Program-made: the position numbers and the translations under genes | Assembly (NCBI GenBank): GCA_001695595.3 | Contig: MBPM02000012.1 | Span: forward strand, 806,001 to 870,000 | Length of the DNA stretch: 64,000 nt | Source of the DNA: Plasmopara viticola | Lineage: Eukaryota; Oomycota; Peronosporomycetes; Peronosporales; Peronosporaceae | Reading direction: 5' to 3' | The notes under the pieces: generated by a model | Database searches by the model: none | The model's input: only the letters and a program-made list of their open reading frames with translations | What the model was told of the DNA's origin: nothing | Shown here: one piece after another, positions 31,884 to 55,287 of the stretch | How the letters are laid out: each line of letters starts with the position of its first letter | Position numbering within the stretch: position 1 is the first letter of the stretch

Positions 31884-34800
31884 ATGTTTGCTCCTCTCCA
31901 AGGCCCCCACTATGCCACTAACACGCGGGCCGTCTGCATCGGCAGCGGTCGCTTTATAGTACGTTGCATCAGCTTCGAGCTTTTAATGCATTCTACTCAT
32001 ACTCTGCCCGGTATCGCGTCCAGCGTGCCGTGCTCGTTCCGATCTTTCGATCTCTTGAGAACAGCGTCATAGTGGCGCAGACCCGTGGCACGAGCTTTGC
32101 ATCAGCTTGTGTTGCTGCAAAGGGAAGGTACGAGGTAGATACGATAGGACCGGATGGTCACGTGGATACAAGTGTTTTTGAGCTGGAAGGTACGATTGGA
32201 AAGCCGTATCGATAGACCGGTGATTAGCAAGTTCTCTTGTATCTGGACGCAGCGGTGGGCTCGTTAGGTGTTCCCGAGGGTCGTGCAGCGTTTCTCAAGT
32301 TGCCGGCCAAGCTACCGCAACTCAAGTACATTGGCTTTGGCGTCACTGAAGCGGGGCTGCAGCCCAATTCTCAGGCAATTAATCATCTGACCGAATTCTT
32401 GCAAGCTGCATTTGAATGTATCCCAGGTAACCAACTTAAAAGAAGCGTCACTTTGTCATCAATTAACATTCCAATATGCTGCGGTCTTTGCAGACAACGA
32501 CCTGTCCATCATTAATACAGACAATTTTCCAAACAATGGCGACCATATCAAGAAGCTCGTTCGTGAGCTAGATTGGGTTCAAAGTGATGCTTCTGCTGCC
32601 TTTCGGAGCTACTTGAACAACAAGGTGCACTTTCACAATACAATGGTAGACCGCATAACAAATCACCGGACTGGAGACCCGCTCGTGCCTTTAACCGAGC
32701 CGTGGCCGGCTAAGGCTCTTGTCATTGAAGATTTGCATGGTGTATTGGATACCAACCGTCTCCTTCAGGTTCCTGGGGTCCACATACGTACCAACAAGTA
32801 TGATATCGCAAAGGATTATTTGCTTAAATTTTCGCTTGGCAATGCTATTAACTCGGCCATGGTGTACCTGCTGGCACTCTCTCGTCAGCGTACAGCAAAT
32901 CAATTCCACCAATTCCCCACTATCTGCAAATACCTCGATCAATTGTTCGAAAAGGACATTTTACCAGCATTATTAGCTGCTAATGTGGCTGAAGAACAAG
33001 CCCGCAACTTCTATGCTGAGTGGCTTGTGCGGATGAAGCACCCACACTTTGGCCTCGATACTTTCTGGGTCTCACAGAATGCACTTTTGCGACTTTACGT
33101 GCGTCTTTTGCACTCAGTCAATGTCAACGTTGCTCACGACAATGACTACCGCCCCAGCAATTTTATGGCGTTTGCAACTGCAATTGCGTTGCGCTTCTTA
33201 ACTCCGTCGCAAGTCGCCTCTAAACGGGAATTGTCGACAATCTTTGTGGGTCAAATGGATCCGATTCGAGAGAACACACCTATCTTTTCGCTCACAGAAA
33301 AGACTTGGACATACGATTCTGGACTCACTGCAAACTTATCGACTGGTAAGTATGAATTTGACGATGGCGAGAATGGACGGGTTTCTCGCTTGCTTTGGCG
33401 TGCGAGTCAGCACGTGCTTAAATTTGGTAAAGGTACCAATGGCAATCCACTGCCCTCAACTGAAGTGTCGAGTGGTGTTGGTGTAGCCGTTGCCAGTGTG
33501 CTCAGCGGTGTCCAGGGCTTTGATCTTACCAACGATGTCTACGCTTCGTTCGCTGCTGACGTTGCTGGTCTGTACCAGCGTCTTATCTCTGGCAAGCAGA
33601 CGGCTCTAGAGACACTAGAAGACGTACTTCGGAACCACGACACGAGTGAGTATCTCAAGACAAAGGAGGAAGTTGCAATTTTTGTACGCACGGCGGTTGC
33701 TAGCGTCGAAATCATTGATGTCCACACGCATTTATTTCCTCCCAGCCACGGTAACCTCATGCTGTGGGGTATCAATGAACTCCTCACGTACCATTACCTC
33801 GTGGCAGAGTTTCTGCAAACATCAACGTTGCAAGTCGAAGCGTTTGATTCGTATCCAAAGGAAGAACAAGCCGTTCTGATCTGGCAGCACTTGTTCGTTG
33901 ACCGCTCGCCCGTGTCTGAAGCTTGTCGTGGTGTCTTGACGACTTTGCACTTGTTGGGTTTAGATCATCTCGTTGCAAAGCGTGATATTGTCGCCATACA
34001 AGAATGGTTCAAGCAGCAGGACCCGGAGGAATACGTGGACACGGTCTTTCGTCTCGCGGGGCTCAAGTACGCAGTGATGACCAACATTCCGTTCGAGCCA
34101 CAAGAGGCGCGTCACTGGCTTGGTGACCCCGCCACAAAGACGCCACATGCGCCTCTCTGGTCACGAAAGTACTTTCGCTCAGCGTTGCGCGTGGACCAAA
34201 TCTTGTTGGGTGACTGGGCGTCCATTGGTCCGACGTTGGAAGTGTTTACGTTGCCTCGTACATTGGCGGGAGTGCGCACTTTACTGGAGAAATGGATCGA
34301 GATTATGCAACCAGAGTATTTTATGGCAAGTGTACCCATTTCTTTCCAGTATCCGGATGAAAGGACACCCAAATCTGCCACTGACGCATTACCAGATGGT
34401 GCAGAGTTACTGCTGCAGGTTTTACTGCCTTTGGCTGAAGAAAAGAAGCTGCCGATTGCACTCAAGTTTGACAGTGTGCGTCCGATCAATGCTCGCTACG
34501 GTGTGGCTGGTGACGGTGTCAAGCCTAGCAACGTCGATATTTTGATTAAATTATGCAACAACTTTCCACGAGTCAAGTTCCTAGCCACCTTTCTATCGCG
34601 CGTCAATCAGCACGAGGTGACAGTAACAGCCAACAAGTTTCGCAACTTGCATCTATATGGGTGCTGGTGGTACTGCAACAATCCGTCCATCATTGAAGAG
34701 CTGACGCGCATGCGCATTGAGATTCTAGGCACTGCGTTTACGAGCCAACACTCGGACGCACGGGTGCTGGACCAGCTCATTTACAAGTGGAGTCACTCGC

Positions 34801-34943
34801 GTGAGGTCATTGGAAACGTATTGGTCGACATGTATGAAAAGCTTTTTGCGACGGGATGGAAAGTGTCCAAGAGCGACATTGAGCGTGACGTGCAACGCTT
34901 GTTTGGTCAGAGCTACGAGGAATTTATGACGAAGGACTCGTAA
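31884..34943 (+). CDS. Bifunctional UxaB-like dehydrogenase/UxaC-like uronate isomerase, copy 1
   Basis: Four exons (31,884-31,958; 32,024-32,189; 32,253-32,426; 32,494-34,943) separated by GT-AG introns of 65, 63 and 67 nt give 954 residues. Residues about 1-455 match polyol-specific long-chain dehydrogenases (mannitol dehydrogenase, UxaB, UxuB): CIGSGRFIR nucleotide-binding start, TDNFPNNGD, VHFHNTMVDRIT, and TEPWPAKALVIED. The family motif K-x4-N-x2-H reads K250, N255 and Asn258, so the catalytic His is replaced. Residues 462-954 match uronate isomerase (UxaC) at normal length, with the metal-binding H549-T-H551 in IIDVHTHLFPP and GCWWYCNN near the end. Predicted chemistry: D-galacturonate (or D-glucuronate) to a keto-uronate, then reduction to an aldonate. 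No signal peptide is evident, so it is probably cytosolic. Copy 2 confirms the positions of introns 1 and 3 but lacks intron 2. Confidence 0.85.
33462..34928 (+). repeat. Arm 1 of 1,467-bp inverted repeat (gene-conversion tract)
   Basis: This segment of copy 1, from the codons for EVSSG to EEFM, matches 47,787-49,253 in inverted orientation at equal length with no indel and only scattered substitutions (about 14 amino-acid differences over 489 residues). Similarity falls sharply at both edges: upstream the proteins are clearly diverged, and downstream only four codons before the stop already differ. Confidence 0.9.
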
Positions 34944-35003
34944 TTAGTGTAGCCCATGCACAGAGTCGACCTGACAGAACTCAGCTGTTCGAAATAGCTA
35001 CCT

Positions 35004-35597
35004 TTACGTGTTTTCCTCCATGTCATATTCTGTATTAACGATTGGCAGTTTGGCCCATAATGCAAACGTGTGCAATATTATAGAGGCCGCAACTGTCACG
35101 TTGAGGGACGCGGTACCCCCTCCGTATTGTGGAATGTAGACAAAGTCATCGCAAATGGCGACTTGTGCCGCGTTCATGCCACTCCCCTGATAGCGTATGC
35201 AACAAATGCGACCCAATAAGCTTTCGACGTGCCCAATCAATGCCTGCAATCGTACCTCGTTGCCCATGATAAAGGCCGTATCGCCGCAAAACGGCGAATC
35301 AGCAATGCGCTTTGCGTCGTGCATGATCTCAACACCCACGATACGGATTCCTCGCTCTTGGCAACGCGCTCTGCAGTCCTTGAGCGTCGCCACGCGCGTG
35401 ACATGGCAGCTCAAGGAGCTTAAAAACGGCTTTTGCTCTTGCAAATCAAACGTTTTCTGCCCTACAACAAAGACTTCTTTCACTCCAAAGGCCGAGGCGC
35501 TCACGAGCATATTCTTGACATTTTTCATCTTCTGCACATTGTTGAGAATGAGAAAGTGGCATGGGGGAGCTGCTAAAGCCTCTTCCGTCATCTCCAT
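35004..35597 (-). CDS. SpoU/TrmH-family RNA 2'-O-methyltransferase
   Basis: A single-exon gene of 197 residues from ATG at 35,597; the frame is open further upstream but without another ATG. It consists of the SpoU (SPOUT) domain alone. Motif 2 is FIMGNE (about 109-114) and motif 3 is IPQYGGGTASLNVTVAASI (155-173), which bind S-adenosylmethionine in the trefoil knot and form the dimer. It closely resembles the short SpoU proteins of plants and protists, presumed to methylate tRNA or rRNA ribose. Oddity: motif 1 reads NVKNMLVSASAFG, where the family usually has N-x-G-x3-R-x-A-x-AFG, so the catalytic-type arginine is a valine (Val32). It may have altered activity. It is convergent with fusion copy 1 (stops 60 bp apart) and divergent from the dehydrogenase gene. 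Confidence 0.85.
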   Translation of the reverse strand: MEMTEEALAAPPCHFLILNNVQKMKNVKNMLVSASAFGVKEVFVVGQKTFDLQEQKPFLSSLSCHVTRVATLKDCRARCQERGIRIVGVEIMHDAKRIADSPFCGDTAFIMGNEVRLQALIGHVESLLGRICCIRYQGSGMNAAQVAICDDFVYIPQYGGGTASLNVTVAASIILHTFALWAKLPIVNTEYDMEENT

Positions 35598-35783
35598 TGA
35601 CTGGTCGAATGAGGAGCGCTTACAATAAATAGTCTGTATCGTAGGCTGTCTCCAAAATGGCACACTAAATTAGGGACAGCAGACACCGGATTATAATAAA
35701 GTACCAATTCATGGCAATTTCTAGCTCTGCCCAGTGACTGTGTGGCCACTCGCGTTTTGTCACCGTGCAACGGATTCACGGCC
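35598..35783. promoter_or_regulatory. Divergent promoter region between SpoU and dehydrogenase genes
   Basis: The 186 bp between the two start codons must serve both genes unless transcripts overlap. I see no convincing oomycete initiator or other named element. The role is inferred from gene orientation only. Confidence 0.4.
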
Positions 35784-37733
35784 ATGGTGGACAAGAAATG
35801 CAAGTTTGCAACGAGTCAAGAGCATCAGACTGGACACGAGCGCCGTAGGGTTCTCAAGGATGCTGTCTGTCGAGAAAAGCGAAATGATGCGGGCTTGGTA
35901 CCCAGCAAGCAGATGAGCATTGCTACCCTCATTACCTCACCACCCACGCTCAAAGTTAGCAACGACAGCAATCGAGTGGCGCTAGCAGACATCAAAGATG
36001 ATGTGGAGACGGTGCAGAACAGTCACGAGCCAGTTTCGTCTGAGAACATTCCAGCAGCGTTCTTGGCGACGCAAGCATTTGCAAGTCCACGGGACTTTTT
36101 TGTCACGCCACGGGTACAAGGAAGTGGTACAAGTGATGGACCATCTGTGTCGATGAAAGAGACCTATGTGGTCTGTACGCTGTGCAGAGTGACCATGGGC
36201 AAGCGTGAGTGCACCCTCGAGAGGCACTTGTATCGCCATCATCCCCACGTGTTTCGTGTTGACACTTCCATCAAGACCGAAGAATTGTCATCACGGACAA
36301 ACAAGCACTCGGTCATGGAACAGGACGTGGAAAGTGGAACTGGTACGGATCAATTGATGGTACAATCTTGTCATTCTTTTGGTAGGGGTACAAAGAGTGA
36401 CAAGATGTCGGACAGTGTGGATCCTAATAGTCAGAAGCTTAATGACGCTTTTGAGAGCTGGCTGTGCTCGGATGTGATTCCAGTTAAAGCTTTACAGAGC
36501 GAACTCTTTCACGAATTCGTATCTTTGGTCAATCCACGGTTCAAAATGCCAGAGGTGAACCTCCAGCCGCGTTTGCGTAGCACATTAGACACAAACACGG
36601 ACGCTACTTTGACCAATGTCGTGAAAGTTGATGCGACTCAAGTGCGGTTGATGAAAGGCTTGTGTTTACAAGGCAATGGTGGAGCACCACAGTTAAAGAC
36701 CGACCTCTTAGTCCCAAGTCCAGGACCGCAAGAAGCTCTGATTGAAGTGTTACGAGCAGGGATTTGTGGGACAGATTTACAGATGATTCATAATTACAAG
36801 GCAGGGTTCAAAGGTGCTCTTGGACATGAATTCGTAGGCATTGTTCGACAACTTGGCACGCAGGGCACAATCGACGAGCAATTCTGGATCGGAAAGCGCG
36901 TTGTCGGAGAAATCAACATTCCATGTGACGCTTCTCACTGCACGACTTGTAGTATCGAGTGCAAGGAGAAGCGAGATCGATTGAGTCGAAACGCGATTCG
37001 ACGCCGCAATCATTGCCCAAACCGGTCGTGTCTTGGTATTGTACGGAAAGATGGAGCATTTGCCGAGTACATTACGCTTCCCGTCGCAAATTTGTATGAA
37101 GTCCCGCATGAGATTGTGGATTCCCATGCTGTGTTTGCCGAGCCTTTGGCTGCGGCCTGCCGAATCCTAGAGCAACAAATCATTCACTCCTCGGATCACG
37201 TTGTCATACTGGGAGATGGTAAACTGGGTCTCATGGTTGCCGAGGTTTTACATGCTTTTCACGCTGCAAAGTCCATTACTTTGGTAGGAAAGCACCGCGA
37301 GAAGCTCGCGCTTGCCACATCGTTTGTGACTTCAGTGTACACATTGGCAAACGACGACGAAGCTGAAATGGCCAAAGTCGCTGCTTGTATCAAGAAGGAG
37401 AGGGCACCAATTGATGTTTGCATTGACAGTACTGGCACGTCTCGGGGCGTTGCATTGGCGCTCGAGATCGTTCGTAACGGCGGTGCTGTCGTGATCAAGT
37501 CGACTTGCTCGGCCAAACGGTCGACGTTGGACGTTCGAGCGTTTCAGACCAAACGACTTCGAATCATTGGCTCGCGGTGTGGTCCTATTCCCTGGGCATT
37601 GCAATTACTGAAGGAACGGAAAGTTGACGTGCAAAAGTATCTTCATGGCGTGTACCCGCTCGAACGAGCCGAAGAAGCATTGGCTCATGCGGCTCAACGT
37701 GGCACTCTGAAAATTCAGCTTGTCATTAGATGA
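35784..37733 (+). CDS. Zinc-dependent MDR alcohol dehydrogenase with zinc-finger/hAT-like N-terminal extension
   Basis: An uninterrupted frame of 649 residues from the first ATG. Residues about 290-649 are a complete medium-chain zinc dehydrogenase: GICGTD with catalytic C328, GHE at 348-349, a structural-zinc lobe (CTTCSIEC, then HCPNR.CLGI), DGAFAEYITLP, and a Rossmann glycine motif LGDGKLG. This subfamily oxidises alcohols or polyols; its substrate here is unknown. Residues 1-289 are foreign to the family. They hold a zinc finger (C131, C134, H148, H152/H153; CTLCRVTMGKREC) and a stretch near 225-260 with SELFHEFVSLVNPRFKMP, resembling the 'F..lv..lnPrykvPsr' segment after the BED finger of hAT transposases. 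An ATG at 36,651 would give the dehydrogenase alone (360 residues), so a separate short product is possible. No intron is evident. Confidence 0.8.
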   Translation: MVDKKCKFATSQEHQTGHERRRVLKDAVCREKRNDAGLVPSKQMSIATLITSPPTLKVSNDSNRVALADIKDDVETVQNSHEPVSSENIPAAFLATQAFASPRDFFVTPRVQGSGTSDGPSVSMKETYVVCTLCRVTMGKRECTLERHLYRHHPHVFRVDTSIKTEELSSRTNKHSVMEQDVESGTGTDQLMVQSCHSFGRGTKSDKMSDSVDPNSQKLNDAFESWLCSDVIPVKALQSELFHEFVSLVNPRFKMPEVNLQPRLRSTLDTNTDATLTNVVKVDATQVRLMKGLCLQGNGGAPQLKTDLLVPSPGPQEALIEVLRAGICGTDLQMIHNYKAGFKGALGHEFVGIVRQLGTQGTIDEQFWIGKRVVGEINIPCDASHCTTCSIECKEKRDRLSRNAIRRRNHCPNRSCLGIVRKDGAFAEYITLPVANLYEVPHEIVDSHAVFAEPLAAACRILEQQIIHSSDHVVILGDGKLGLMVAEVLHAFHAAKSITLVGKHREKLALATSFVTSVYTLANDDEAEMAKVAACIKKERAPIDVCIDSTGTSRGVALALEIVRNGGAVVIKSTCSAKRSTLDVRAFQTKRLRIIGSRCGPIPWALQLLKERKVDVQKYLHGVYPLERAEEALAHAAQRGTLKIQLVIR

Positions 37734-38362
37734 CGCTAGAGTTTTCTCGCAGCGGTGAAGGAAGCGGCACAGTGGTACATCAAGGTACCTTACACAATTA
37801 AAAATTGATTTAATAAGATATGGAATACTAAGTGTACCCGATCCTTGAATTGGGTGTACATGTACCAGAGATTTCGACAACATTTTTAGTTAGGAACCTT
37901 GACATGCAACGGTCCTAAATTTGAAATTAAACCAACACCCTGCTTACTTGGCCGTGAAGATCGGCTAAAACTCGTCCTTATTAATCCCTTCTTTGAATTG
38001 CGATTCCTCGCACATGTCGAGTTCCTTAGCACTTAGGATACTAAATATTCGCTCACCGCTACATCTGTCTGTACGCCTGATAACAGTCGTTGTGACTTCT
38101 ACGCCTACAGTCGTCGTGACTTGTACGCCCACGCGAGTAGATAAAACATTTAAAGGTTCACGGAGCCTCCAAGATAGACAGTAGTACATTCCCGCATCTG
38201 TCCATCTCATGGACAATTCGCGCTGCCCGGAAACTTCATGATTTATACAATCCTGAGAAGGTAGCTGCATCTGTGGCCCTCCTTGCTGCTAAGCACTCGA
38301 GATCCAAGAGCAAAGGTTATGCTTTAAAGCTCGGCTATCGTACTTCCGCAGGGAGCAACTGA
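37734..38362. other. Intergenic stretch with 24-bp repeat
   Basis: No gene. Contains the 24-bp tandem duplication at 38,083-38,130. About 130 bp of open plus-strand frame ends in TSAGSN just before the LTR-like segment and may be a retroelement remnant. Confidence 0.4.
38083..38130. repeat. 24-bp tandem duplication
   Basis: Two units of 24 bp beginning acagtcgt (38,083-38,106 and 38,107-38,130), differing at three positions. Confidence 0.8.
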
Positions 38363-38535
38363 TGTAGGGTTAAAGCGGGTGTGGCTTGAGCTCTCCGGCT
38401 AAAAAAGCGTAAGTATTATAGCCTTATCTCCTAGGTAAAGGATAAGATGGCACTCAGGTGGCCCTTATTACACACATCAGGTGCGCGTAGCGCCCACGCT
38501 CTCTAACCTAAACGGTCAGGCCACACCCGTAAAAT
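38363..38535. repeat. Probable solo LTR remnant
   Basis: The segment begins tgtagggttaaagcgggtgt and ends in gccacacccgta. Its terminal gggtgtggc and gccacaccc are inverted complements, as at the ends of oomycete LTRs, and the 5' TG is intact. The 3' end is degraded (no clean CA) and no second copy or target duplication was found, so a solo, decayed LTR is the best reading. Confidence 0.45.
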
Positions 38536-41500
38536 TAATTCATCGAAGTGTTTGACTCATAAAACGCCTTTAATGCCACCAACAATTTCTCCAGCGAACC
38601 TAAAGTCTCGGGCATGAGCTAAACGAACATGTCCATGAGTTTATTTAGTCGATGGCCTTTATCAGTTGGGAGCCATTACCTAAACAAGTCCAGATTTCTG
38701 TGCTTAAAGACAGTCTAAGACTCACATTAAAGCTGGCTGTTCAAATTCTGCTCGCGTAGCTACAGCGATTTTCACTCAACTCGTCGGGGTAAAGGTCGCA
38801 GCGATGGAAGAAGCGATCCATATTGCTCATCAAGAGAAATGCCTTAGATGGCTACTTCTCGTCTCTACAACTGTTCACGTGAACTCGCTGACTAAAGGTC
38901 ATTAGGATTTAAGTGCGGCCGAGCAAAGCAATATCCGCTGGTTAGGCCGCAGTAAAATAAATCCTATGTTTATCAAAAATGGCTGGCTCAAGTCTTCAAA
39001 AAGGTCGCTGGTAGGAGCCACAACTTTAAAATCAGAAAACACAGATCGACAGTAAATAATGAGTGTGTGTTTAATACTCATGATACCTGAGATCCCGCAG
39101 TGAACGCCAGCAACAGGAGACTGCTTATATTGCACGCGAATACAGCGAAGCATTACATTCCATGTCAAGGTTAAACAGCGTCGCAAATTTTGTACGCTTG
39201 CGAACAATTGCGGTCGGTCAAAACTGATAGGCAGATCTATAAAAGAGCGGCAAAAAAGTCAATTTCGATTCGGCTGGCTAATCAAACGATCCTCACTGTT
39301 TTTATGTAGAAAAAGACATGTCTGTGAAATTTAAGGATCTTGTGAGTGCAATCATCTTTTTGCTTTAGGAGTGAGCCTATGTGACTCGGCCCTGGTCATG
39401 CCATGTCTACAATAGCACGATTTTTGGATCAAATGATGGAAAAAGTCATGGACAATAGCCGTCCGATTCTGCGCAATAGGGTTTTTGTTGAGTCATGTTT
39501 CCGCACATATTGTTCGTATGGTTCCATTAAATGCAAACCTAGCTTGGGATGCAAGCTGGTAAAGCTTCATGTTTCTCCTTAGAGGGAAAGAAAAGCACAT
39601 TTTCTCTTCAAGATTAGGGATAACGAGAACAGTCGGACTTGTTACGGACGATCAGCGCTCGCACTTTTATACATGGGAAGTCGTAAACACAATATCCGTG
39701 AGGCAACTTCTTAGCGTGTTTTGTGTCTTGAAGGTAAGTGTGACGTTCTTATTGAAAAGCAGTAAGCTTCAGAAACAAAAAGAAACATAGAATTAGTATC
39801 CCAGCAGAGATGTCACTATTGGTGCTACGTCCCAGCTAAATGGGAGCAATAATTAAGGAGAATCAAAGAACAAACGCATTTAGCGCCTTGATTTTTTTCA
39901 TACGGAGTACTGTGTACCGTCCGAGTACGAGAGAAAAAGTCAAGCCCTCGAAAAAACGTTTTTGACAATATAGCTTGATTTGCATCGATTAAGTAGCTTT
40001 TAAAAATGTTTGTCAGTAGCCTGAGCAGCCAAAACAAAATGTTTTCTATTGAGAATTTGTAAAGTAGCAAAGTCTCAATAAAAAAATACTTTGTTATGTC
40101 TAAAGCATCTATCGCATAAAGTTCTACTATTGGCTATCGCAACATTAATGCTTCAACAAGTGCATTAACTGCTTCGCCGACAGTACCATGATGATGGTTA
40201 ATACGCCGTTTTCAAATAATTTCTTATGCTGCCTTCTATCCTTAAACTGGAGCAGTGGCTGCCATTGCTGTTATTGCAAGCCAAATGTCCCGTGGTGCTG
40301 GTACAGCCGGATGTATCTTGGGTCTTGAAGCCACTTTCTTTACATTATCATGCTTGCGGAATTTTGCATTGTATGTAAAGAGCTTGATTAAAAGGCGGAC
40401 CCCTCGGTCCGTCTCCGCTTCCGAATTTATTAACGCAAAAGTTCCTTTTGTCTCGCTACAATTACTTTTTAAAATGTGCAGCTGGGCAGGTACAAAAGTT
40501 TTATAAGCTCGATCAAAATTTGGCAAAACAAATTAAAGACTTTCAAGAATTGAATTTTTCAGACTCATCCAACCCTATTTCATATTTCTTATACATCAAA
40601 TTTAGGATAGGATGAGGGCTCATTTAAACGACGTGGGATCGAGTACTTATTTTAACTACATTGAGCAGCCCAATAAGATTGACAGAGTGAGTATCCTTAT
40701 CTAGACGCTGAAGTCGATGCAATTCTAGCTTAAAATTGAAGGAATGAGATTCCTCAGTGAGCATGCAATTATATAGCTTAAATCAAAAGTCGTCGCCGTT
40801 TTCGTCAAGAGGTCATTTTTAAGCTTTTAAAGATTCAAGCGTTTCGTTCCTTTAAAGTTGGAGTGTTTTGCATAGCTGGTGAGCCTGAACGCAAACCTTA
40901 TACCTTTTTTGGGGCTGGGGCGAGCACCTGAGCGATGAGACTGTTTTAACATCAATGTCACTAAGCCAAGGCTTTTGCAGCTTTAGCATGCTAACATTTA
41001 GGTGAGCACTCGTCAAAATGCCCACGGCGCTTTGGGCATGTTTATCGTCCGAAGGCGAAGCCGTTTACGGACACATAACAAAGTAGAACGACAGACGTGT
41101 GCTCCTCGCCACAGTAAATTAAAAGGCTCTTCCGAAGCTTTCCTTGCCTGAGCAAATGCCTGTTGTCTTGCGCGGCACAAGCGTAAAGTTGTAACTTTCG
41201 ATGCAGATGCATACTTTTTTTTTTCTATAAGCGCAGCTCTAAGAGTAGAGGCCAATTTCCAGGCCAAAACGGTATTCTTGGAGCTAGCTTAGTTATTGTT
41301 ACCATCCGGCAACTTCATTGTACTATTTATTTCTGCATGACTGCAATTTGTTGCACACGTCGATCATCTCACGACAAAGGATAGTAGAGGTTTCTTATCG
41401 AAGACTGTTAACATCCGGCGCACCTCTTCTGTGTAAGTTACGGAGCAATCTTGTCACAGTACTAGACCGATAGGTACTCAAATGAGCTCTGGCTCATCCA

Positions 41501-44500
41501 CAGGTAAACCTTAAATAGTCTACCCCTAGACCAACTCGAACTCAGCTGCTCAAGCAATGCTTCATCTACTCATGTTTAAGGTTGAGTTAATTATCATTTT
41601 CTACTTTAAATTATGCTACGAATAGACTACATATAAAATTGACAGAGGGGCTCAGCGATGTCAGCAAAGTACAAGGCCAAAGACAAATAGCAAAACCAGT
41701 CTTTTTAATTCGTGGTTTTTAGTCTCACACTAAAGTTTCCTAAAGTCCGCGCCCGGAATCGGTTCGGAGCTCCCGGCTCGGCGAATTTAGGGTTTAACGA
41801 GTAGGAGGCTTGTTTACTTCCAAAAGGGATTCCCCCTATGAGCCGTGATGATTCGGTGCTTTAGAGCATCCCCAGAACGAATAATGTTTTCGATTTTTGC
41901 GGCAAAATCCTTAAATAGGATCTGATGCACACCGAAACCTCGAATATAGTCGCTGTTAGGTCTCATTGACTACCTTTTCAATTGCCATGCAAGAATTGAC
42001 ATCTTAAAAGCTTTTGCGGCGCAGGAGTATGATAAATGTGCCTCCAGGCTTTATGATCTACTGATACGGATAAGATTGACCATTCTCTTCTATGTCGAGC
42101 CCACTACTAAAAAAAGAGAGTATTTTCCAAAGACGGTGACTTGGGCCAGTCGCAAAGCCCATTGCCAATTGCGTGAGCAATTTCGGTCACTGAGGTGCCT
42201 TAAGAGTGTACTGTGGGTTGCCCAGTGGCATTGCAAGCCAAAGGACTTCAAAAGACTGGTAAAATCTACGGAATTTATCTAAATGGGTAATGTATTCGCA
42301 AAGCCGGTGATTTGTATTCAAAGCAATTGTCGTTTGAACTTTCCCTCGGGATCAGTGGGCAAAACTTCAGCCAACTCCTCCTTATCTTTTCTATTGTTTT
42401 ATAGCAGGGAGATGTCTTAGGACGACAAAGTAAAGGCAATTGGTTTCCAGTCGTGGTAGGGCTAGAAATCCTCTAAAATTTTCCTTCCTTCGAGAAGTCA
42501 GTCTTTTTTTGACTTGCGACAAAAGGCACTTTTCAACTTCGTCACCGTAAGTACGCATATCTTCGTGCACACCTCACTGTACATAGCGCTGCGTGGCTTT
42601 GTTGCGCTTCACTTCAGAAGGCTGTACGACGTGCTGGGTGAATACAACATTGTTTCCACACGTTTAGCTAACGCTCTCACATCGTGATTATAGGCTGGTC
42701 AAGGGAAATATAGTCAATTGATTTTACAAATTAGCCTAAAAAACTCGTGAGGAAAATAGCCGAAGACTTTGTGTCATAAAGGTTTACTCGCACACTACAA
42801 AATGGCTGCACGTCTTCTGATAAACATTAAATTCAATCTGGAAGGTGGTGAATTGTCGTTAATAAAGCCAGAAATTAACCCAAATATACAATTACGGACG
42901 TCTCTAGAATAATATTGCACTTGCGTTATTATCAACCGCTAGATGGAAAATTAGCGCACACTCTTTATATTAGAAAAAAAGAGAATGGGCACACATTGTG
43001 TGCTCTACGTAAGCTTTGTTGAGCTTTTAGTAATCAGAGCTAGGTAGGTGTGCGCAGAAGCGGTAGCGTAACTGGTTTGTCAGCACCAAGGTTGTGCTTC
43101 TTAACGTGGGTTGAAAATAATACATGAAGCCGCAACATCGTTTTTCCTTTTATTATAAAAAGGTTGAGGGCACGTACCCTGTGAAAACTTTTGACATACA
43201 GTCGTCGTCGGGATAAAGTTTAAAATGAAGGCTCCATTTTGTCTAGATGCTCTCACCTCAAGAATGGTCGCCCGAAAATTAGTTGGACTGTGATGTTTTA
43301 CTAGAATGAACTGATGCTGTAGACATTATATAGACGTTAAAATTACCGATTCGAAGTTTTCACTGTTAGGTATGAGAGTACGAGATAAATATGCACAGAT
43401 CATCGTAATCTTTTTGATGGCATTGCTGGAACAGTGCTTCTTTGAACCGCAAGGCCTACATCGTTTAAGCAAGAGATCTCACATCAAAGATGTCGCTGTG
43501 TTCAGACAATAATATTTACACCTCTTTTCTAAATTTGTCGCGAAAGCACGGATATGAAAGGTGACTTCTTGTACATTAGCCCTCACCGTTTAGGTGCTCA
43601 TAGCCTTTTAATAGAATTTGAAGCGGCGTGTTTGCCACTGTTGATGTTTAAGGTGCCGGAACTTGAGCTGATTGTGCATCAATCTTAATTTTAGAGTGAG
43701 CACGGAGTGCGTGAAGCATATAATGCACGATTTAGTCATTTTTTAACAAGTGATTTACAATGGAGAACTTTGCGTAAGCGTGTGTGTACTAATTAAGTAC
43801 TACTTTCAAGGCTCAATTTGGCAGCTCGAGTCATAGGCCCCCGAGCAGTAAGGTGAGCACACATCCGCTTTTAATTCTCACATATATTGGCGTATCAGTG
43901 AGTCATAGCTAATCAGTAGGCTTGGGCCATATTCGCATCAAGCAGAAGTTGATCACCGCGTTTGGCGGTTATATGCATGATAAGCAGTCGAGTATGACCA
44001 TATTGTAAGACAGATGTTTCGACAACCAGATCAAGTACAGTACCAAATGAGCTAGCAAAAAGCAATGCATGGTTAGGAACCAATGCATGGTGAAGTTGTG
44101 AGATGAACAAATGTTGATTAGTAGCAAGAAATTATACGCATTCGCACTATAAATAGAAGCCTTGCATCATTTCTTTAAACTGGGTTCAATTTAACTTTGA
44201 ATAGCGATTTACGACTCGTACTAGTTTTCCTACTAGAGTAAAGGTCAGAGACTTAATTTCAAACCGCATCTAGGCAAAAGTTACTACTTGCAGCACGCTC
44301 CTGCTAAATACTGGTGGGGATTCAGGTATAAAACGTAGGGTTCAGGGTGTTGGGGATACAGGTATGAAACGTACAATAAACACTACAGAGACACAGGTAA
44401 AGCTTCTATAAACATTGCTTAGGGTTTGTGGAAGAAAAATGTGGGTTCGTTGTACTTAACAACTTGCAAGATATGTTTATCGCACGACCTTAAGTGTATA

Positions 44501-47500
44501 TGACAGATCGAAATTTTGCGCTACAAACTATTTTGGAAGTTTTAACCTCCAAGTATTCGTTCTGCACACATCAATAATGGAACCAAGAGCTCAACTCTTC
44601 AGACGCTTGAAGCAATAATGGCTTTCAGAGCTGCTATTTTCGAATAAATAGCATGGCAAACTCAGCTAGCGGAGGTATGTAAACGTGCGGTTCGTGCTTA
44701 ATTAGCACAAGGAGACATCAATTCAAGGGATTGAAGACCGAAGTGCCTTCAAAAGAGATAATGAAAGCGATAAATTGTGATCATCATACCCAAATTGTCA
44801 ACGAATAGAACAATATATATCGGCATTAATCTCTTTTGCTTGAGGGCCCAATGCGACACATGGCAAATTTACATTTAGACAAACTTGAAGGAATACAGTG
44901 TAAGAATGTAAACGACTTGGGGGTTATACTTCGATTTATAAGAATATACACAATGAGTCAATAGTATATCGCCGCGTCTTTCTACTCGACATTTTGGGCA
45001 TTCGGGCTGCTTATTTGATCCGTATCGAGCTCAAGGCAAGCGATCCTACGGCTATCGTCACATGATGGGTATGGTGATATCTGGCTATTTGCATATTTAG
45101 AATCAGCAAGAGGATACCTTGGCGGACAACAGAAGCCCATAGCTAGTCACTTTTAGGCACACACAGCGACGTCGGCCTTTCAAAGTAGTTTGAGCTAGAG
45201 ATAAGGGGAGTATGTTAAGTCGTCGGTACATACTGCACGACAGAAGTGACAGAAATACTGTTTTGATTATTGTCTGCATTAAATCCCACATACCTTTTAA
45301 CGTATAGCAATAAAATGATTAATGGTCTACATTTAGCCTGCCAACGCAATGCGCTGACTCGCGCGCAATTTCTAGACGGCCCTGTGCTGTGTGTTACGCT
45401 GCTGGATTACATAACCTTGGTCGATCTCTATTTGCTTGGGGTCCAAGCATATGTACTTGTGCATTTTTTTTTGCCTTAGTTTCCTATATCGATGTACCAG
45501 TGCGGATTAGCATATAAGGCTTAATGCTTTAGCCAGTATCTACAATAACAAGTGGAAAACATTTTTGTTGCCGCACCACACCACTTTGCACGTGGGTGAT
45601 ATGAAATTGGTACCTTTACCCACTGAGAAGCTTCTTTTCACTATCCGAGTGCGTGTTGGTGAATAAAATAGTAACACCAGCAGATGTAGGTCCTTTAAAT
45701 TGCTCTCAGAGAAAAATCTCCGATTAGAGAAGCCTATAAAGCTGTCAAATGCCAAGTGACACCAGTACTTCGTGCAGCTGTGGATATTGCAAATCAATTC
45801 AGATAGCAATCCCTGAAAAGCATGGCCTGCATTTTGCATTAAGCGTCTAAAAGCGCACTACCAAATATATAACTATGGAGACTTGAGTGTGGTGTAAGAT
45901 GTTTAACCTCTAACAAAGTCCAAATTTGGCGCTCAACAGGAGGGTGAAATTTATGAGTCTGAGGCAAAATGATACATTTACAGGCAACACTGTTTTCGAT
46001 CGATCTGAAAAGAAAATTGAGCAAGCTAAAAGAGTTGGATTACAAAATATACAATTTCAAAAATCGACCATGTTACGCTTTACGGACTGAGGGAACTTTA
46101 TGGCTCATGAGGGCCAAAGATAGAGAAGCGTTGTCTAGTTTAATCTACTATCGATTGCTATTCATCGACCCGCTAAGCAATACATGCTTCGGTTTTACTA
46201 TGACTACGCTCAATTTTCTCCGATCGCTCAGAAATCTAATATCAGATAGACAAAGACGGCGGCTGTAATGCTCATGCAATCATGTAAAGGATTGTGTCAT
46301 GCCTAAATAGAAGATCACTGTGAAATGTATAAATACCAGTGGTTCCTGCGAGGCTACAATGCTGCAATAGCCAAATTCGATCGCCGTTTGCCAAGGAAAA
46401 TTAGCAAGATGTTTTGGTGAGCATAACAATATAAAAGATTGTTTTTTGCTATCAAAGGGTCGAACGCAATTCTAATGGTTCCTAACAAAGTCGTCGTAAT
46501 TGTGATGAGCTTATTGAAAATGGATTAGAGACCGTCGTTCGTGACCGCATCACGCTTTGGGGTACTATCAAGGGGTTCAAGCATTTTTTTTATATCGCCC
46601 ATTTTTAAATCAAAAGAGCGCTCAACTTTTTACAACTACAAGCACTAGATAATGTCGGCGGCGATTCGACGGTTCCACTTTATACCATAGAGGGCAAAAA
46701 CTTGAATTTTTCTGCAAATACAAGATTGTGTCTCAAAAATTTAATAAGGACAGCGATGTAGGGGACAAAAAAAGCGATATGATTGCTTCAACACAACTTC
46801 ATGCGACCCTAACTTGCGAAAAATAAATCTTGTGATTAGGAAGAAGCATCTTATACTGCCTGCTATTAGCATCAAGTGCTCGCAAGCCTTACAAAGCAGG
46901 ACGACTATAGCTAGCTGGTATTGCCCATCTTCACCATAAAATTCTGAGAATCCAAGTACGATAAGTGTGAGGGGTAAATCACTCATAAAGCCGTGCACTT
47001 TAAGTGGAAGGGCCCGAAGCTCACTATAAGGGAAGGTGACTTTTTAACGCAGCTAAGGATCTTGTTTAAAGATAAGCGGCACTCGATCCGGTTGTAAAGG
47101 TCAAGTCTTACATGACCAAAGGACTCCTCTTTTCTTGGAGAGTCTCAAAGGCCCGGGGTCTCTTTAATGACTTCACAGTCTGCTTGCTCGAAAAGCAACC
47201 TCAAATGCTCAACTAAATGCAGTTCCTTTGCATGTATGTTTTATCTCGCCAGTGTTCCGCAAACATCCCCTCCCGCTTTGGGCGATATATACGAGCACTC
47301 GCCTGGCTTTCCGCCTGCTAAGGCTGCGAAGAAACCTTACGTTTACGACAACGTTGTCAAACGACCTATCGCCCAGAAGTACGTATTATACTTGTCATCA
47401 TACTCACAGGCCGTGTAAGAGGCCTCACTTGAAAAGATAGAAATGTCCATGTTTTACGGTAGCCAAAACTTTATTGGAATGCGAAGTCGCCAAATTTAAG

Positions 47501-47771
47501 AACCAGAAGAACGAGAGAAGGGTAGTAAATTCAGTGGCTGAAGCATTTAACGCAGTAAGCGAAGGACTGTGTGACTCACCCTTCGTCCAGTACTGCCGTA
47601 AGTTGCCGTAGATTAATGCACTCACTAGACGACGCAAAGTGTTGTGCGTAAACATCAAAACGAATATTCAAGTTTTTTTCTTTTTGCGAATTTTCGATCT
47701 CTGTTGGATGCCAGCAGATGAAGTAAGAGTGATGCCTTCCCACTTCTTCTTTTGTCACGACTTTACCAACC
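38536..47771. other. 9-kb gene-free stretch between the inverted gene copies
   Basis: No gene can be supported. Short frames at 38,902-39,207 (minus), 40,255-40,506 (plus) and 45,540-45,839 (minus) show no domains. A weak copia RT-like segment lies at 43,913-44,060 and an imperfect 22-bp repeat (ggggatWcaggtatRaaacgta, 36-bp period) at 44,316-44,373. Confidence 0.45.
43913..44060 (-). mobile_element. Weak Ty1/copia RT relic
   Basis: The minus strand reads SSFGTVLDLVVETSVLQYGH, then a stretch ending in AQAY. This parallels the copia RT segment 'fs.vl.l.s.rlll.la....l...DV.nAyl'. Only the general pattern matches and the key aspartate region is disturbed. Confidence 0.25.
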
Positions 47772-50700
47772 TTACATAGGCTTCTCCATAAATTCCTCGT
47801 AGCTCTGACCAAACAAGCGTTGCACGTCACGCTCAATGTCGCTCTTGGACACTTTCCATCCCGTCGCAAAGAGCTTTTCATACATGTCGACCAATACGCT
47901 TCCAATGACCTCACGCGAGTGACTCCACTTGTAAATGAGCTGGTCCAGCACCCGTGCGTCCGAGTGTTGGCTCGTAAACGCAGTGCCTAGAATCTCAATG
48001 CGCATGCGCGTCAGCTCTTCAATGATGGACGGATTGTTGCAGTACCACCAGCACCCATAGAGATGCAAGTTGCGAAACTTGTTGGCTGTTACTGTCACCT
48101 CGTGCTGATTGACGCGTGATAGAAAGGTGGCTAGGAACTTGACTCGTGGAAAGTTGTTGCATAATTTAATCAAAATATCGACGTTGCTAGGCTTGACACC
48201 GTCACCAGCCACACCGTAGCGAGCATTGATCGGACGCACACTATCAAACTTGAGTGCAATCGGCAGCTTCGTTTCTTCAGCCAAAGGCAGTAAAACCTGC
48301 AGCAGTAATTCTGCACCATCTGGTAATGCGCCAGTGGCAGATTTGGGTGCACTTTCATCCGTATACTTGAAAGAAATGGGTACACTTGCCATAAAATACT
48401 CTGGTTGCATAATCTCAATCCATTTCTCCAGTAAAGTGCGCACTCCCGCCAATGTACGAGGCAACGTGAACACTTCCAACGTCGGACCAATGGACGTCCA
48501 GTCACCCAACAAGATTTGGTCCACGCGCAACGCTGAGCGAAAGTACTTTCGTGACCAGAGAGGCGCGTGTGGCGTGTTTGTGGCGGGGTCACCAAGCCAG
48601 TGACGCGCCTCTTGTGGCTCGAACGGAATGTTGGTCATCACTGCGTACTTGAGCCCCGCGAGACGAAAGACCGTGTCCACGTATTCCTCGGGGTCCTGCT
48701 GCTTGAACCATTCTTGTATGGCGACAATATCACGCTTTGCAACGAGATGATCTAAACCCAACAAGTGCAGAGTCGTCAAGACACCACGACAAGCTTCAGA
48801 CACGGGCGAGCGGTCAACGAACAAGTGCTGCCAGATCAGAACGGCTTGTTCTTCCTTTGGATACGAATAAAACGCTTCGACTTGCAACGTTGATGTTTGC
48901 AAGAACTCTGCCACAAGGTAATGGTACGTGAGGAGTTCATTGATACCCCACAGCATGAGGTTACCGTGGCTGGGAGGAAATAAATGCGTGTGGACATCAA
49001 TGATCTCGACGCTGGCAACCGCCGTGCGTACAAAAGTTGCAACTTCTTCCTTTGTCTTGAGATACTCACTCGTGTCGTGGTTCCGAAGTACGTCTTTTAG
49101 TGTCTCTAAAGCTGTCTGCTTGCCAGAGATAAGACGCTGGTACAGACTAGCAACGTCAGCAGCGAACGAAGCGTAGACATCGTTGGTAAGATCAAAGCCC
49201 TGGACACCGCTGAGCACACTGGCAACGGCAACACCAACACCACTCGACACTTCAGACGAAGGCTCGGTGCTAGCCGATCCGGCAATGGTATGGCTGCTAT
49301 TTTTACTAGCACTCAAGACTTTTTGACTAATCTTCCAAAGCATCTGAGCAGTGCAGCCTTTCTCCCCGTCCATAAATTCATATTTGCCCGTAGAAATGTT
49401 GGCACTCAATCCATTCGCATAGACCCACGTTTTCTCGGTCGTAGAGTAGATTGGTGTACAATCTTGGAAATTATCCATTGCACCCACAAAAATCGTAGGT
49501 CCACTGGTCTTTTCTTTTCTCGACTCGACTTGCGTTGGGGTCAGATACCGCAGAATCACAGCTGTTGCAAAGGCCATGAACACGCTGGGATGGTCGCATC
49601 CGTCCCGAGTCACGTTGGCCGCCACACTACTGAACAGCCTCACACCATACTTGAACATGGCATTTTGACCGACCCAAAAGGGATCAAGTCCAAAGTGTCG
49701 ATGCTCCACACGGCCCATCCACTCATCGTACGCCTGCTGCGCCTCCTCGTGGTTGACGCCACGAAGCACGAGGGATGGTGCAATGTCTTTGGCAAACAAT
49801 AAATCGAGAAATTGACGAATGATGGGGTACTTTAACACGTCGCACGTCGTCTTTGCTCGCGTTAGAGCCAACAAGTATACCATGGCCGTATGCACTGCGT
49901 TAGCGATGCTCAATTTTAGCAAATGGTCTTGCTTCAACTTGCCTGCGGACGTGCGAATGTGCACGCCTGGTAAAGAATTGAGCACGTGGGCATCCAACAC
50001 ACCTGCAAGATCCTCAATCACCAAGGTCTTGATAGGCCAAGGCTCTGTCAATGGGACAAGTGAATCCCCCGCTCGATGCGACGTTAATCGATCGACCATG
50101 GTGTTGTGAAAGTGCACCTTGGACGCCACATAGTCCCGAAACGGAGCGAGACTATCGTGGGGCTGCCCTTTCCACTTGGTTTCCAGCACCAACTTCTTGA
50201 TAGTATCTCCATTGGTGGGCACGTTGTCCGTATTAATGACTGAAATGGTATTGTCTGCAAATTATCGTAACAAAGTCAAACATAAGTGAATGGCTACTCT
50301 TTCCTCATTCAAGTGAGGCTCAAATCGACGTACTGCGTCGCTCTCGAAAGCAGTTGGAAAGCAGCTCTGTGAGATCCACAATAGCTTGACTTCCCGTCAC
50401 CACGCCACTCTCCGTGACGCCAAAGCCAATAAACTTCAGGTTTGGCAACTTGGCGGGCAATTGCATAAAAGCCACGCGACCTTTACCATCTCCTAAAGAC
50501 CCAACGGCCTCTACCTCGACGACTTCAGTCTGTACGCTACCATCCTTTTGGATCGTATCCACTTCGTACTTTCCTTCCGCTTTGGCGCACATTGAGGCAA
50601 ATTGAAGGCCTCGCGTCTGGGCCAGCACCACACCACTGCCGGCTGCACGGAGTGTTGGCACGAGCACGCAACGCTGCGACTCGTGACAGATGCAGTAAGG

Positions 50701-50819
50701 AACATATTTGACAAGAGATGATTTACAGTATGATGACGCACCAGGAAGCGACCAGTGCCGATGCAGATGGCGTCGGTCTTGTCCGAAAAAGCGGCTTGTC
50801 CTCGCAACGGTGTGAACAT
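47772..50819 (-). CDS. Bifunctional UxaB-like dehydrogenase/UxaC-like uronate isomerase, copy 2
   Basis: Three exons on the minus strand (50,819-50,742; 50,673-50,334; 50,254-47,772) with GT-AG introns of 68 and 79 nt give 966 residues. The dehydrogenase half (about 1-470) shows CIGTGRFLR at the nucleotide-binding start, TDNVPTNGD, VHFHNTMVDRLT and TEPWPIKTLVIED. It has an intact K253-x4-N258-x2-H261, the catalytic triad of the mannitol dehydrogenase family. The isomerase half carries H561-T-H563 in IIDVHTHLFPP. This copy therefore looks competent for both steps: isomerising D-galacturonate or D-glucuronate and reducing the product to the aldonate. Its second exon runs through the site where copy 1 has an intron. 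The two genes are inverted with 12.8 kb between their stop codons (34,944-47,771). Confidence 0.87.
47787..49253 (-). repeat. Arm 2 of 1,467-bp inverted repeat (gene-conversion tract)
   Basis: Inverted counterpart of 33,462-34,928, equal in length. On the dehydrogenase side the homology break falls exactly at the linker between the two enzyme halves; on the other side it falls four codons before the stop. Confidence 0.9.
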
Positions 50820-53800: not shown

Positions 53801-54019
53801 TCCGCCGCACAGAGAGTACCACACCCAAAAAAACATTTATCCAAGCAAGTCAAGATAGAGGAAAAGATCAACAACAGAAAGCAGATTTATACTTAAGTTT
53901 TGGTGCCTGTATATGTTCTTATGCTTCAAAAGCTTTGGTTTATATAGCACATCGTATATGCAAAATAAAAACACTTGATAAGACGTACAATTTTTGAGTG
54001 TTATCTATTGTTTGGGATC
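50820..54019. other. Intergenic region upstream of copy 2 and of the HMBS gene
   Basis: No gene is supportable. It must contain the promoters of copy 2 (left end) and of HMBS (right end, an AT-rich stretch with several A/T runs). A strong inverted repeat lies at 51,609-51,677. Other open frames are under 85 codons and overlapping. Confidence 0.45.
51609..51677. repeat. Long hairpin-forming inverted repeat
   Basis: Perfect 16-bp arms tacgccaacatgtaag (51,620-51,635) and cttacatgttggcgta (51,651-51,666) flank a 15-nt loop. With one mismatch and a few G-T pairs the stem extends outward to about 27 bp (51,609-51,677). No coding frame accounts for it. A small RNA precursor, a MITE remnant or paired transposon ends are all possible. 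Confidence 0.7.
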
Positions 54020-55287
54020 ATGACCTCGCCCACGGCCGCCAAGCGCACCATCTATGTGTCGTCGCGCAAGAGCCAACTTGCCATGGCCCAGACCAACACC
54101 GTCATCGCCATGCTCAATGAGCGCTTTCCAGGCCTGCACTTTGTTGTGGGGCAAGAGGACACGATAGGTGACCAAGTGCTCGATCGCCACTTGAGTGACT
54201 TGGGCACCTCCACAGCTTCGGGTCTTTTCACCAAGAGTTTAGAAGAGGCGTTGTTAGCCAAAACTGCTAGTTTTGCCGTCCACTCACTTAAAGATATGCC
54301 GACGACGCTGCCAAACGGACTCTTGCTGGCCGCTATCACCAAGCGGGAGAGTCCTGAAGACGCTGCGATTATCCACCCAAAGCACAAAGCCAAGGGAATG
54401 AAATTGCTCAAGGAATTACCTGACGGCAGCGTGATTGGTACGAGCTCATTACGACGCGAAGCCCTTCTACGAAGTCAATTTCCTACCTTTGAGATCAAGA
54501 CGCTGCGAGGAAATATCCAGACGAGATTGGCTAAGCTGGATGAGCACGACGACTATGACGCCATTATTGTAGCAGCCTGTGGATTCCGTCGTGGAAATCT
54601 TGGACACAGAATTGACGAGATCCTGCCCATGGAATCGTTTGGGTACGGTGTGGGTCAAGGGAGCATTGGTGTTGAATGTCGTGCAGACGATGAGGAGGTG
54701 AGAGATGGAGACATTGAGATGATTGGTAGTGCTACTGAACGGCGTTGTGTATGTGTAGACGATAAAGATGCTCAAGTCCATTTCGGATGAAAAGTCAGAG
54801 CAATTGTGCATGGCGGAGCGAAGTTTGCTGTATCACCTGGAAGGCGGATGTCAGGTCTGCCTATGAAATGACAAAAAAAAGTGGTGCAAAGTGCTTTTTT
54901 TACATACGTGTGCCTTTTAGATTGCTATGGGCGTGAGTGCAACGCTGGAGGAAGAGACACTTACGCTGAACTCTACACTGTTATCACGCGATGGGAAGGA
55001 AAGCGTCTACGGTACGTTTAGTATTTGCTTTTTGGTTTGCTGAGTGGCAAGTTGATTGAGTTTCTGGTTGTGCTGCTGCAGAAACGATTTCAGGTCCACG
55101 TTTACAATGTGAAGAGCTTGGCAAAGAGCTTGCTGAGCGTTTTTGGAGCAATGAACTTGCCCGGAAGTTGCTGGGCAAAACGCACCAAAAGCGTGCACTG
55201 ACATACGGCGATGCTGAAGCCCCCGGTGACGCTGCGGCCGCCGCCGCCTCGACAGTCCCTTCCAAGAAAGCTAAAACCTCCAAGTAG
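54020..55287 (+). CDS. HMBS: Hydroxymethylbilane synthase (porphobilinogen deaminase)
   Basis: Four exons (54,020-54,697; 54,759-54,854; 54,921-55,011; 55,082-55,287) with GT-AG introns of 61, 66 and 70 nt encode 356 residues. The enzyme condenses four porphobilinogens into hydroxymethylbilane, the third step of haem synthesis from 5-aminolevulinate. Landmarks: VSSRKSQLAMAQT near the N-terminus, catalytic Asp92 in AVHSLKDMPT, TLRGNIQTRL, and LEGGCQ with Cys257, which anchors the dipyrromethane cofactor. Without splicing, the frame stops early at 54,790; the introns restore the conserved second half, so they are well supported. No transit peptide is apparent. The C-terminus ends in an alanine/lysine-rich tail not typical of the family. 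It lies 262 bp upstream of UTP21 on the same strand. Confidence 0.93.

Follow-up and report, generated by a model that had tools for sequence, protein, structure and literature searches.

The window analysed here, a 64,000-nucleotide stretch of Plasmopara viticola DNA (assembly GCA_001695595.3, contig MBPM02000012.1, positions 806,001 to 870,000, forward strand), contains two genes that each join a reductase-like half to a uronate isomerase-like half in one polypeptide. The genes are convergent, facing each other in the window, and were modelled as follows:

31884..34943, plus strand: copy 1 of the reductase-isomerase fusion gene; four exons (31884-31958, 32024-32189, 32253-32426, 32494-34943), ATG at 31884, 954 aa
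47772..50819, minus strand: copy 2 of the reductase-isomerase fusion gene; three exons (50819-50742, 50673-50334, 50254-47772), ATG at 50819, 966 aa

All five introns have GT-AG borders and are 63-79 nt long. Two intron positions are common to the copies, one after the G-x-GRF motif (phase 0) and one before NTDN (phase 1); copy 1 has one intron more, and the isomerase part is intron-free. The splice junctions of both copies match annotated full-length orthologs, which aligned over 97-100% of the query. A preliminary description of this DNA had placed the fusion gene here twice, and the gene models, orthologs and domain matches bear this out. Its view that the intron-bearing copies belong to a eukaryotic genome also held, and bacterial contamination was rejected on the basis of the introns, the GC content of the window (0.40-0.52) and the presence of orthologs across many oomycetes. 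Each gene does encode, as one polypeptide, relatives of two enzymes that catalyse consecutive steps of hexuronate catabolism. When the assembly as a whole (92,937,831 bases, 358 contigs) was searched in six frames with exons unjoined, the two window copies and one short broken relic on another contig were recovered, and nothing further. The relic (locus L088, G000:C3:1148673-1149014) is a decayed third copy of the isomerase end, 74% identical to residues 821-941 and interrupted by three stops.

The isomerase and reductase halves

Comparison of the C-terminal half with the uronate isomerase BH0493 gave an E value of 2e-104, with a full-length sequence match and a fold match. Residues H561, H563, Y585, D905 and R907 are present in both window copies and are equivalent to BH0493 H26, H28, Y50, D355 and R357, which we take to be its metal and catalytic residues; the H-T-H metal motif noted in the preliminary description was found in both copies. 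The same description had called this half UxaC-type. The assignment to uronate isomerase stood, with BH0493 as the type, but the expected Pfam UxaC profile PF02614 was unmatched in either fusion protein (looked up to E 1) and in the genome. Judged by its sequence, the C-terminal half is a divergent BH0493-type uronate isomerase.

The N-terminal half is related to PF01232/PF08125, with both the Rossmann and the C-terminal domain of the polyol-specific long-chain dehydrogenase/reductases matched. Its earlier designation as UxaB-type was correct at this family level, but UxaB and UxuB themselves are distant. The tagaturonate reductase UxaB model NF002969 scored 46.5 bits for copy 2 and 51.8 bits for copy 1 (curated cut-off 359), the fructuronate reductase UxuB model NF011611 scored 17.7 and 14.8 bits (cut-off 603), and the best NCBIfam E value for the reductase half was 5e-14. 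In a tree of N halves, built by a quick method with Shimodaira-Hasegawa-like approximate likelihood ratio test (SH-aLRT) support, branches of length >3 lead to E. coli UxaB and UxuB, from which the eukaryotic N halves are set apart on a deep branch of their own. Peronosporaceae sequences in this tree split into a copy-1 clade (SH-aLRT 100) and a copy-2 clade (99).

The two copies differ in the active site. The K-x4-N-x2-H motif described earlier for this half is present in copy 2, but copy 1 reads K-x4-N-x2-N. We examined these positions among relatives of the full-length protein, of which 68 were listed among 7,992 scored candidates; 60 of the 68 carry both halves, some in truncated form, and 60 of the 68 were used in the residue alignment. 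N261 in place of His and R341 in place of Lys were found in all ten copy-1 rows. In the other 52 rows, position 261 is His in 51 with one gap, and position 341 is Lys in 51 with one Arg, in the second Globisporangium ultimum paralog; E. coli UxaB and UxuB also carry the equivalents of H261 and K341. Between the copy-1 and copy-2 clades (ten rows each) 20 positions are fixed for different residues, and comparison with 11 outgroup rows identified four of these as unambiguously derived in copy 1 and one in copy 2. An attempt to deduce the substrate of the reductase from individual residues led nowhere. The G. ultimum protein P0020 combines R341 with an Asp at position 337, a residue that it shares with E. 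coli UxuB; its reductase half is 70% identical to that of its paralog, and its isomerase half is 100% identical.

Near-identity of the paralogs at one end

The strong divergence between the window copies lies on one side of a sharp break at codon 474, which divides the genes into the following regions:

31884..33450, plus strand: copy 1 region, the bulk of the PF01232/PF08125-type reductase half, divergent relative to copy 2
33452..34934, plus strand: copy 1 arm of the putative conversion tract, 1483-nt inverted repeat (98%)
47781..49263, minus strand: copy 2 arm of the putative conversion tract, 1483-nt inverted repeat (98%)
49264..50819, minus strand: copy 2 region, most of the reductase half

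Synonymous sites upstream of the break, as far as roughly codon 473 in copy 2, are saturated; across codons 1-457 the proportion of synonymous differences (pS) is 0.77. Starting at codon 477, synonymous divergence (dS) is 0.062 and nonsynonymous divergence (dN) 0.017, with 35 codons differing. The break falls directly after a low-confidence variable loop in the predicted model (residues 456-467 of P0002), so that the tract would take in the complete isomerase together with the final ~55 residues of the reductase fold. This synonymous-site analysis was performed at the DNA level on the window copies; other species were compared as proteins.

To place the isomerase halves we used a tree that included 37 of the listed proteins and 13 of 80 bacterial loci, with up to 15 fusion rows left out. 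The copies paired by species in seven of the seven species with both isomerase halves in the tree, namely the window species, Bremia, Plasmopara halstedii (species name of the second row inferred), Peronospora belbahrii, Hyaloperonospora brassicae, P. nicotianae and G. ultimum. Support was weakest for the P. nicotianae pair (95/77), whose copies come from two strains. The G. ultimum pair lies outside the copy-1 and copy-2 clades and may represent a separate duplication. Pairs were compared for species with both isomerase halves near full length; P. lilii, P. kernoviae, P. boehmeriae, H. arabidopsidis, P. cactorum and Nothophytophthora, whose second copy is truncated or missing in the lists, were left out. 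Paralogs within a species share 90.6-100% identity in their isomerase halves (seven pairs) and 52.3-70.0% in their reductase halves (six pairs, as Bremia copy 2 is without its start). The corresponding values for orthologs between species (six comparisons) are 84.8-92.3% and 72.6-82.0%. The lowest paralog value, 90.6% in H. brassicae, is within the ortholog range and comes from a shorter gene model. When the isomerase halves were constrained to the groups defined by the reductase tree, a clade of copy-1 halves was rejected (p 9e-47), as was a clade of copy-2 halves (p 4e-7). Strong selection alone was rejected as the cause of the identity because synonymous sites match too and the copies cluster by species. 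We infer that recurrent gene conversion explains the near-identity of the isomerase ends.

Distribution, pathway context and neighbouring genes

The fusion is present in Phytophthora, downy mildews, Globisporangium, Lagenidium, Pythium oligandrum, Pythium insidiosum, Achlya, Thraustotheca and Aphanomyces, thus including Saprolegniales, and outside the oomycetes in the haptophyte Prymnesium, the diatom Skeletonema and a dinoflagellate whose name was read as Scrippsiella. Some of these relatives (P0046, P0050, P0051, P0055) are assembled MMETSP transcripts that span both halves, so one message can carry both. Isomerase relatives occur in many bacteria. At none of 80 bacterial isomerase loci was an N-half relative fused to the isomerase, and one locus (L073) had such a relative nearby, on the opposite strand and 21-23% identical, in a tblastn search at E 1e-6 in which many flanks were short and a remote UxaB would be missed. 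A weak N-half relative was detected in six of the 38 isomerase-bearing bacterial genomes reached via 38 of the 80 loci. A bacterial donor had been anticipated in the preliminary description; no donor of the fusion was found among these loci, these genomes and the listed relatives. A search of genome contigs (genome_contigs) with the single protein returned nothing.

Placing every fused isomerase half in one clade was disfavoured (p 0.006), for a group that was picked after seeing the tree and includes stand-alone rows, perhaps truncated gene models, plus one long degenerate branch; the fusion may have arisen once or several times. Among the 20 non-oomycete fusion rows, the metal-binding Asp is replaced by Ser in 12, which include the Scrippsiella and Prymnesium rows, and is kept in seven; one row is truncated. 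Proteins P0043-P0052, P0054 and P0056, of the group with Scrippsiella and Prymnesium, are candidates for a pseudo-isomerase domain kept in the fusion. Reductase halves that have no isomerase sit among the rows of this group in the tree, and three of them (P0199, P0205, P0206) are labelled complete transcripts. Within this group, the isomerase half has apparently ceased to be catalytic, and in some proteins it seems to be gone altogether.

The genome has matches to MIOX, which converts myo-inositol to D-glucuronate and is an internal source of this substrate, as well as four matches to the GH28 polygalacturonase family and a GLDH gene. In the six-frame search, with positive controls, UxuA (PF03786), UxaA (PF04295) and KDPG aldolase (PF01081) each gave zero matches, and a complete bacterial (Ashwell-type) hexuronate pathway, defined as UxaA or UxuA together with KDPG aldolase, was not found in the genome. 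An aldonate dehydratase of the enolase or IlvD family was considered as the next step and rejected, as the PF13378 matches, read by eye, looked like ordinary enolases and the PF00920 match like a dihydroxyacid dehydratase.

Adjoining copy 1 is a zinc-type (MDR) alcohol dehydrogenase gene (35700-37733, plus strand), and a SpoU-family RNA 2'-O-methyltransferase gene (35004-35669, minus strand) lies between the two. The MDR frame has a ~320-residue N-terminal extension with a finger-like C-x2-C...H-x4-H stretch and no Pfam match; the top-scoring matches of the frame are of L-threonine dehydrogenase-like type, every one far under cut-off, and we claim no function for it. Between the fusion genes (37.9-47.5 kb) only short open frames were found. 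Near copy 2 lies the N-terminal part of porphobilinogen deaminase (53969-54790, plus strand), an ordinary haem-pathway gene.

Interpretation and comparison with known systems

The explanation that we favour, and consider probable as a whole, is a bifunctional isomerase-reductase that was duplicated, with reductases that diverged and isomerase ends that were homogenised by conversion. Its chemistry, from activity and substrates to cofactor, stereochemistry and product fate, is predicted. The C-terminal BH0493-type domain would convert D-glucuronate or D-galacturonate to D-fructuronate or D-tagaturonate, and the N-terminal polyol-specific long-chain dehydrogenase domain would use NAD(P)H to reduce the ketouronate to a hexonate. 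The protein has no obvious N-terminal extension and is probably cytosolic. Duplication at or before the base of the Peronosporaceae would have been followed by divergence of the two reductase halves, in which copy 1 altered two otherwise family-wide active-site residues, and the isomerase ends of the convergent genes would have been homogenised again and again. Such repeated conversion would give the cell a single isomerase sequence joined to two distinct reductases. A division of labour is the outcome that we consider likeliest, with one reductase for each ketose product of a promiscuous isomerase.

Several points weigh against this explanation. With no UxuA, UxaA or KDPG aldolase found, the hexonate product has no obvious next enzyme, and a six-frame search of unjoined exons could miss an intron-rich gene. 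The reductase half is too far from UxaB and UxuB for its substrate to be assigned by sequence. Loss of the metal-binding Asp in the Scrippsiella and Prymnesium group means that bifunctionality need not hold for every fusion protein. In the N-half tree, the separation of copy 1 from copy 2 may come before or after the branching-off of Globisporangium and Lagenidium, and copy 1 may have lost reductase activity.

In the most probable alternative, which we still regard as unlikely, copy 1 would be a pseudo-reductase in which H261N and K341R abolish reduction, serving as extra isomerase dose or as a regulatory partner, with copy 2 as the sole full bifunctional enzyme. Outside copy 1, neither position varies among E. 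coli UxaB, UxuB and the remaining N halves examined, save for R341 in one G. ultimum paralog, and the near-identity of the isomerase half is maintained between the copies. However, the copy-1 reductase half is conserved at 73-79% between species (three copy-1 pairs including the window) and retains the Lys and both Asn that we take to be the catalytic and oxyanion-hole residues, and fixation of the substitutions in every copy-1 row looks like constraint rather than decay.

The preliminary description had instead proposed an enzyme for catabolism of pectin-derived galacturonate, with halves of bacterial origin, retained as a plant adaptation. The GH28 matches and the many bacterial isomerase relatives are consistent with this proposal, but we consider it improbable. 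The fusion occurs in animal-pathogenic, mycoparasitic, aquatic and photosynthetic relatives (Saprolegniales, P. insidiosum, P. oligandrum, the diatom, the haptophyte and the dinoflagellate), such that a plant-associated rationale is not needed, and the single distant, opposite-strand N-half relative at the bacterial loci and the six genomes with even a weak one also argue against it.

A slightly less probable alternative is that the fusion feeds ascorbate synthesis, the reductase making L-galactonate (or L-gulonate) from tagaturonate (or fructuronate) rather than altronate or mannonate, and the lactone passing to GLDH. No altronate or mannonate dehydratase was found in the six-frame search of the genome, GLDH is present, and the fusion is distributed over oomycetes, a diatom and a haptophyte. 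PMC4396506 includes both the statement that oomycetes have GLDH and the proposal of a D-galacturonate route with GLDH in photosynthetic eukaryotes with secondary plastids. Three points stand against the ascorbate alternative: the isomerase half of the haptophyte and dinoflagellate fusions has degenerated, a direct galacturonate reductase has no need of an isomerase, and the known relatives of the reductase half produce D-altronate or D-mannonate. It is equally doubtful that stramenopiles possess an unrecognised two-step route from D-galacturonate or D-glucuronate through L-galactonate or L-gulonate to ascorbate via GLDH, of which haptophytes and dinoflagellates would retain the reductase step only after isomerase decay. 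If true, this route would take the place of a direct galacturonate reductase in those lineages to which the D-galacturonate route has been ascribed. Finally, misassembly or a collapsed repeat is a very improbable source of the near-identical isomerase halves: assembly errors are likely at near-identical inverted arms, but all seven species pairs show the pattern, each with its own species-specific isomerase sequence, and 35 codons beyond codon 477 distinguish the window copies.

The fusion is old and was probably already tabulated in 2009. Morris et al. 2009 (PMC2705460) reported 21 novel multifunctional proteins with a domain order common to diatoms, and their Table 2 places P. sojae Ps131558 and T. 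pseudonana Tp264628 under 'Mannitol dehydrogenase'; the main text contains no 'isomerase' and no 'uronate' at the start of a word. From the label and distribution, these are probably the same fusion. No functional description or other mention was found in searches of an open-access library. New here are the reading as uronate isomerase plus reductase, the fixed copy-1 active-site change, the one-end conversion in seven species pairs and the isomerase decay in the other branch. Under the favoured bifunctional explanation, the locus would be a compact natural case in which duplication let one domain diversify and gene conversion held the other constant, and its two proteins, which have one isomerase in common, are predicted to differ in the specificity of their reductases. 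Oomycetes and some algae would gain a uronic-acid step hidden in annotations as 'mannitol 2-dehydrogenase' or 'hypothetical protein'.

Among known systems, Ps131558 and Tp264628, probably the same fusion, were listed, without analysis, as multifunctional proteins whose domain order is shared with a diatom. BH0493 of Bacillus halodurans (PDB 2q08, 2pnk, 3hka) is a stand-alone uronate isomerase, whereas its counterpart here forms the C-terminal portion of a protein of 960 aa. UxaB and UxuB would be the expected next step after the isomerase but are separate proteins; they and ydfI (PDB 4im7) have the K-x4-N-x2-H core seen in copy 2, and the 4im7 structure has the same fold at 16-18% identity to the reductase half in structural alignments. 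By PDB titles, MtlD of Acinetobacter baumannii (bifunctional mannitol-1-phosphate dehydrogenase/phosphatase, PDB 7ocn) likewise joins a dehydrogenase of related type to an enzyme that acts at an adjacent step; its partner is a phosphatase that seemingly precedes the dehydrogenase (the match starts at chain residue 242), whereas the partner here is an isomerase and C-terminal.
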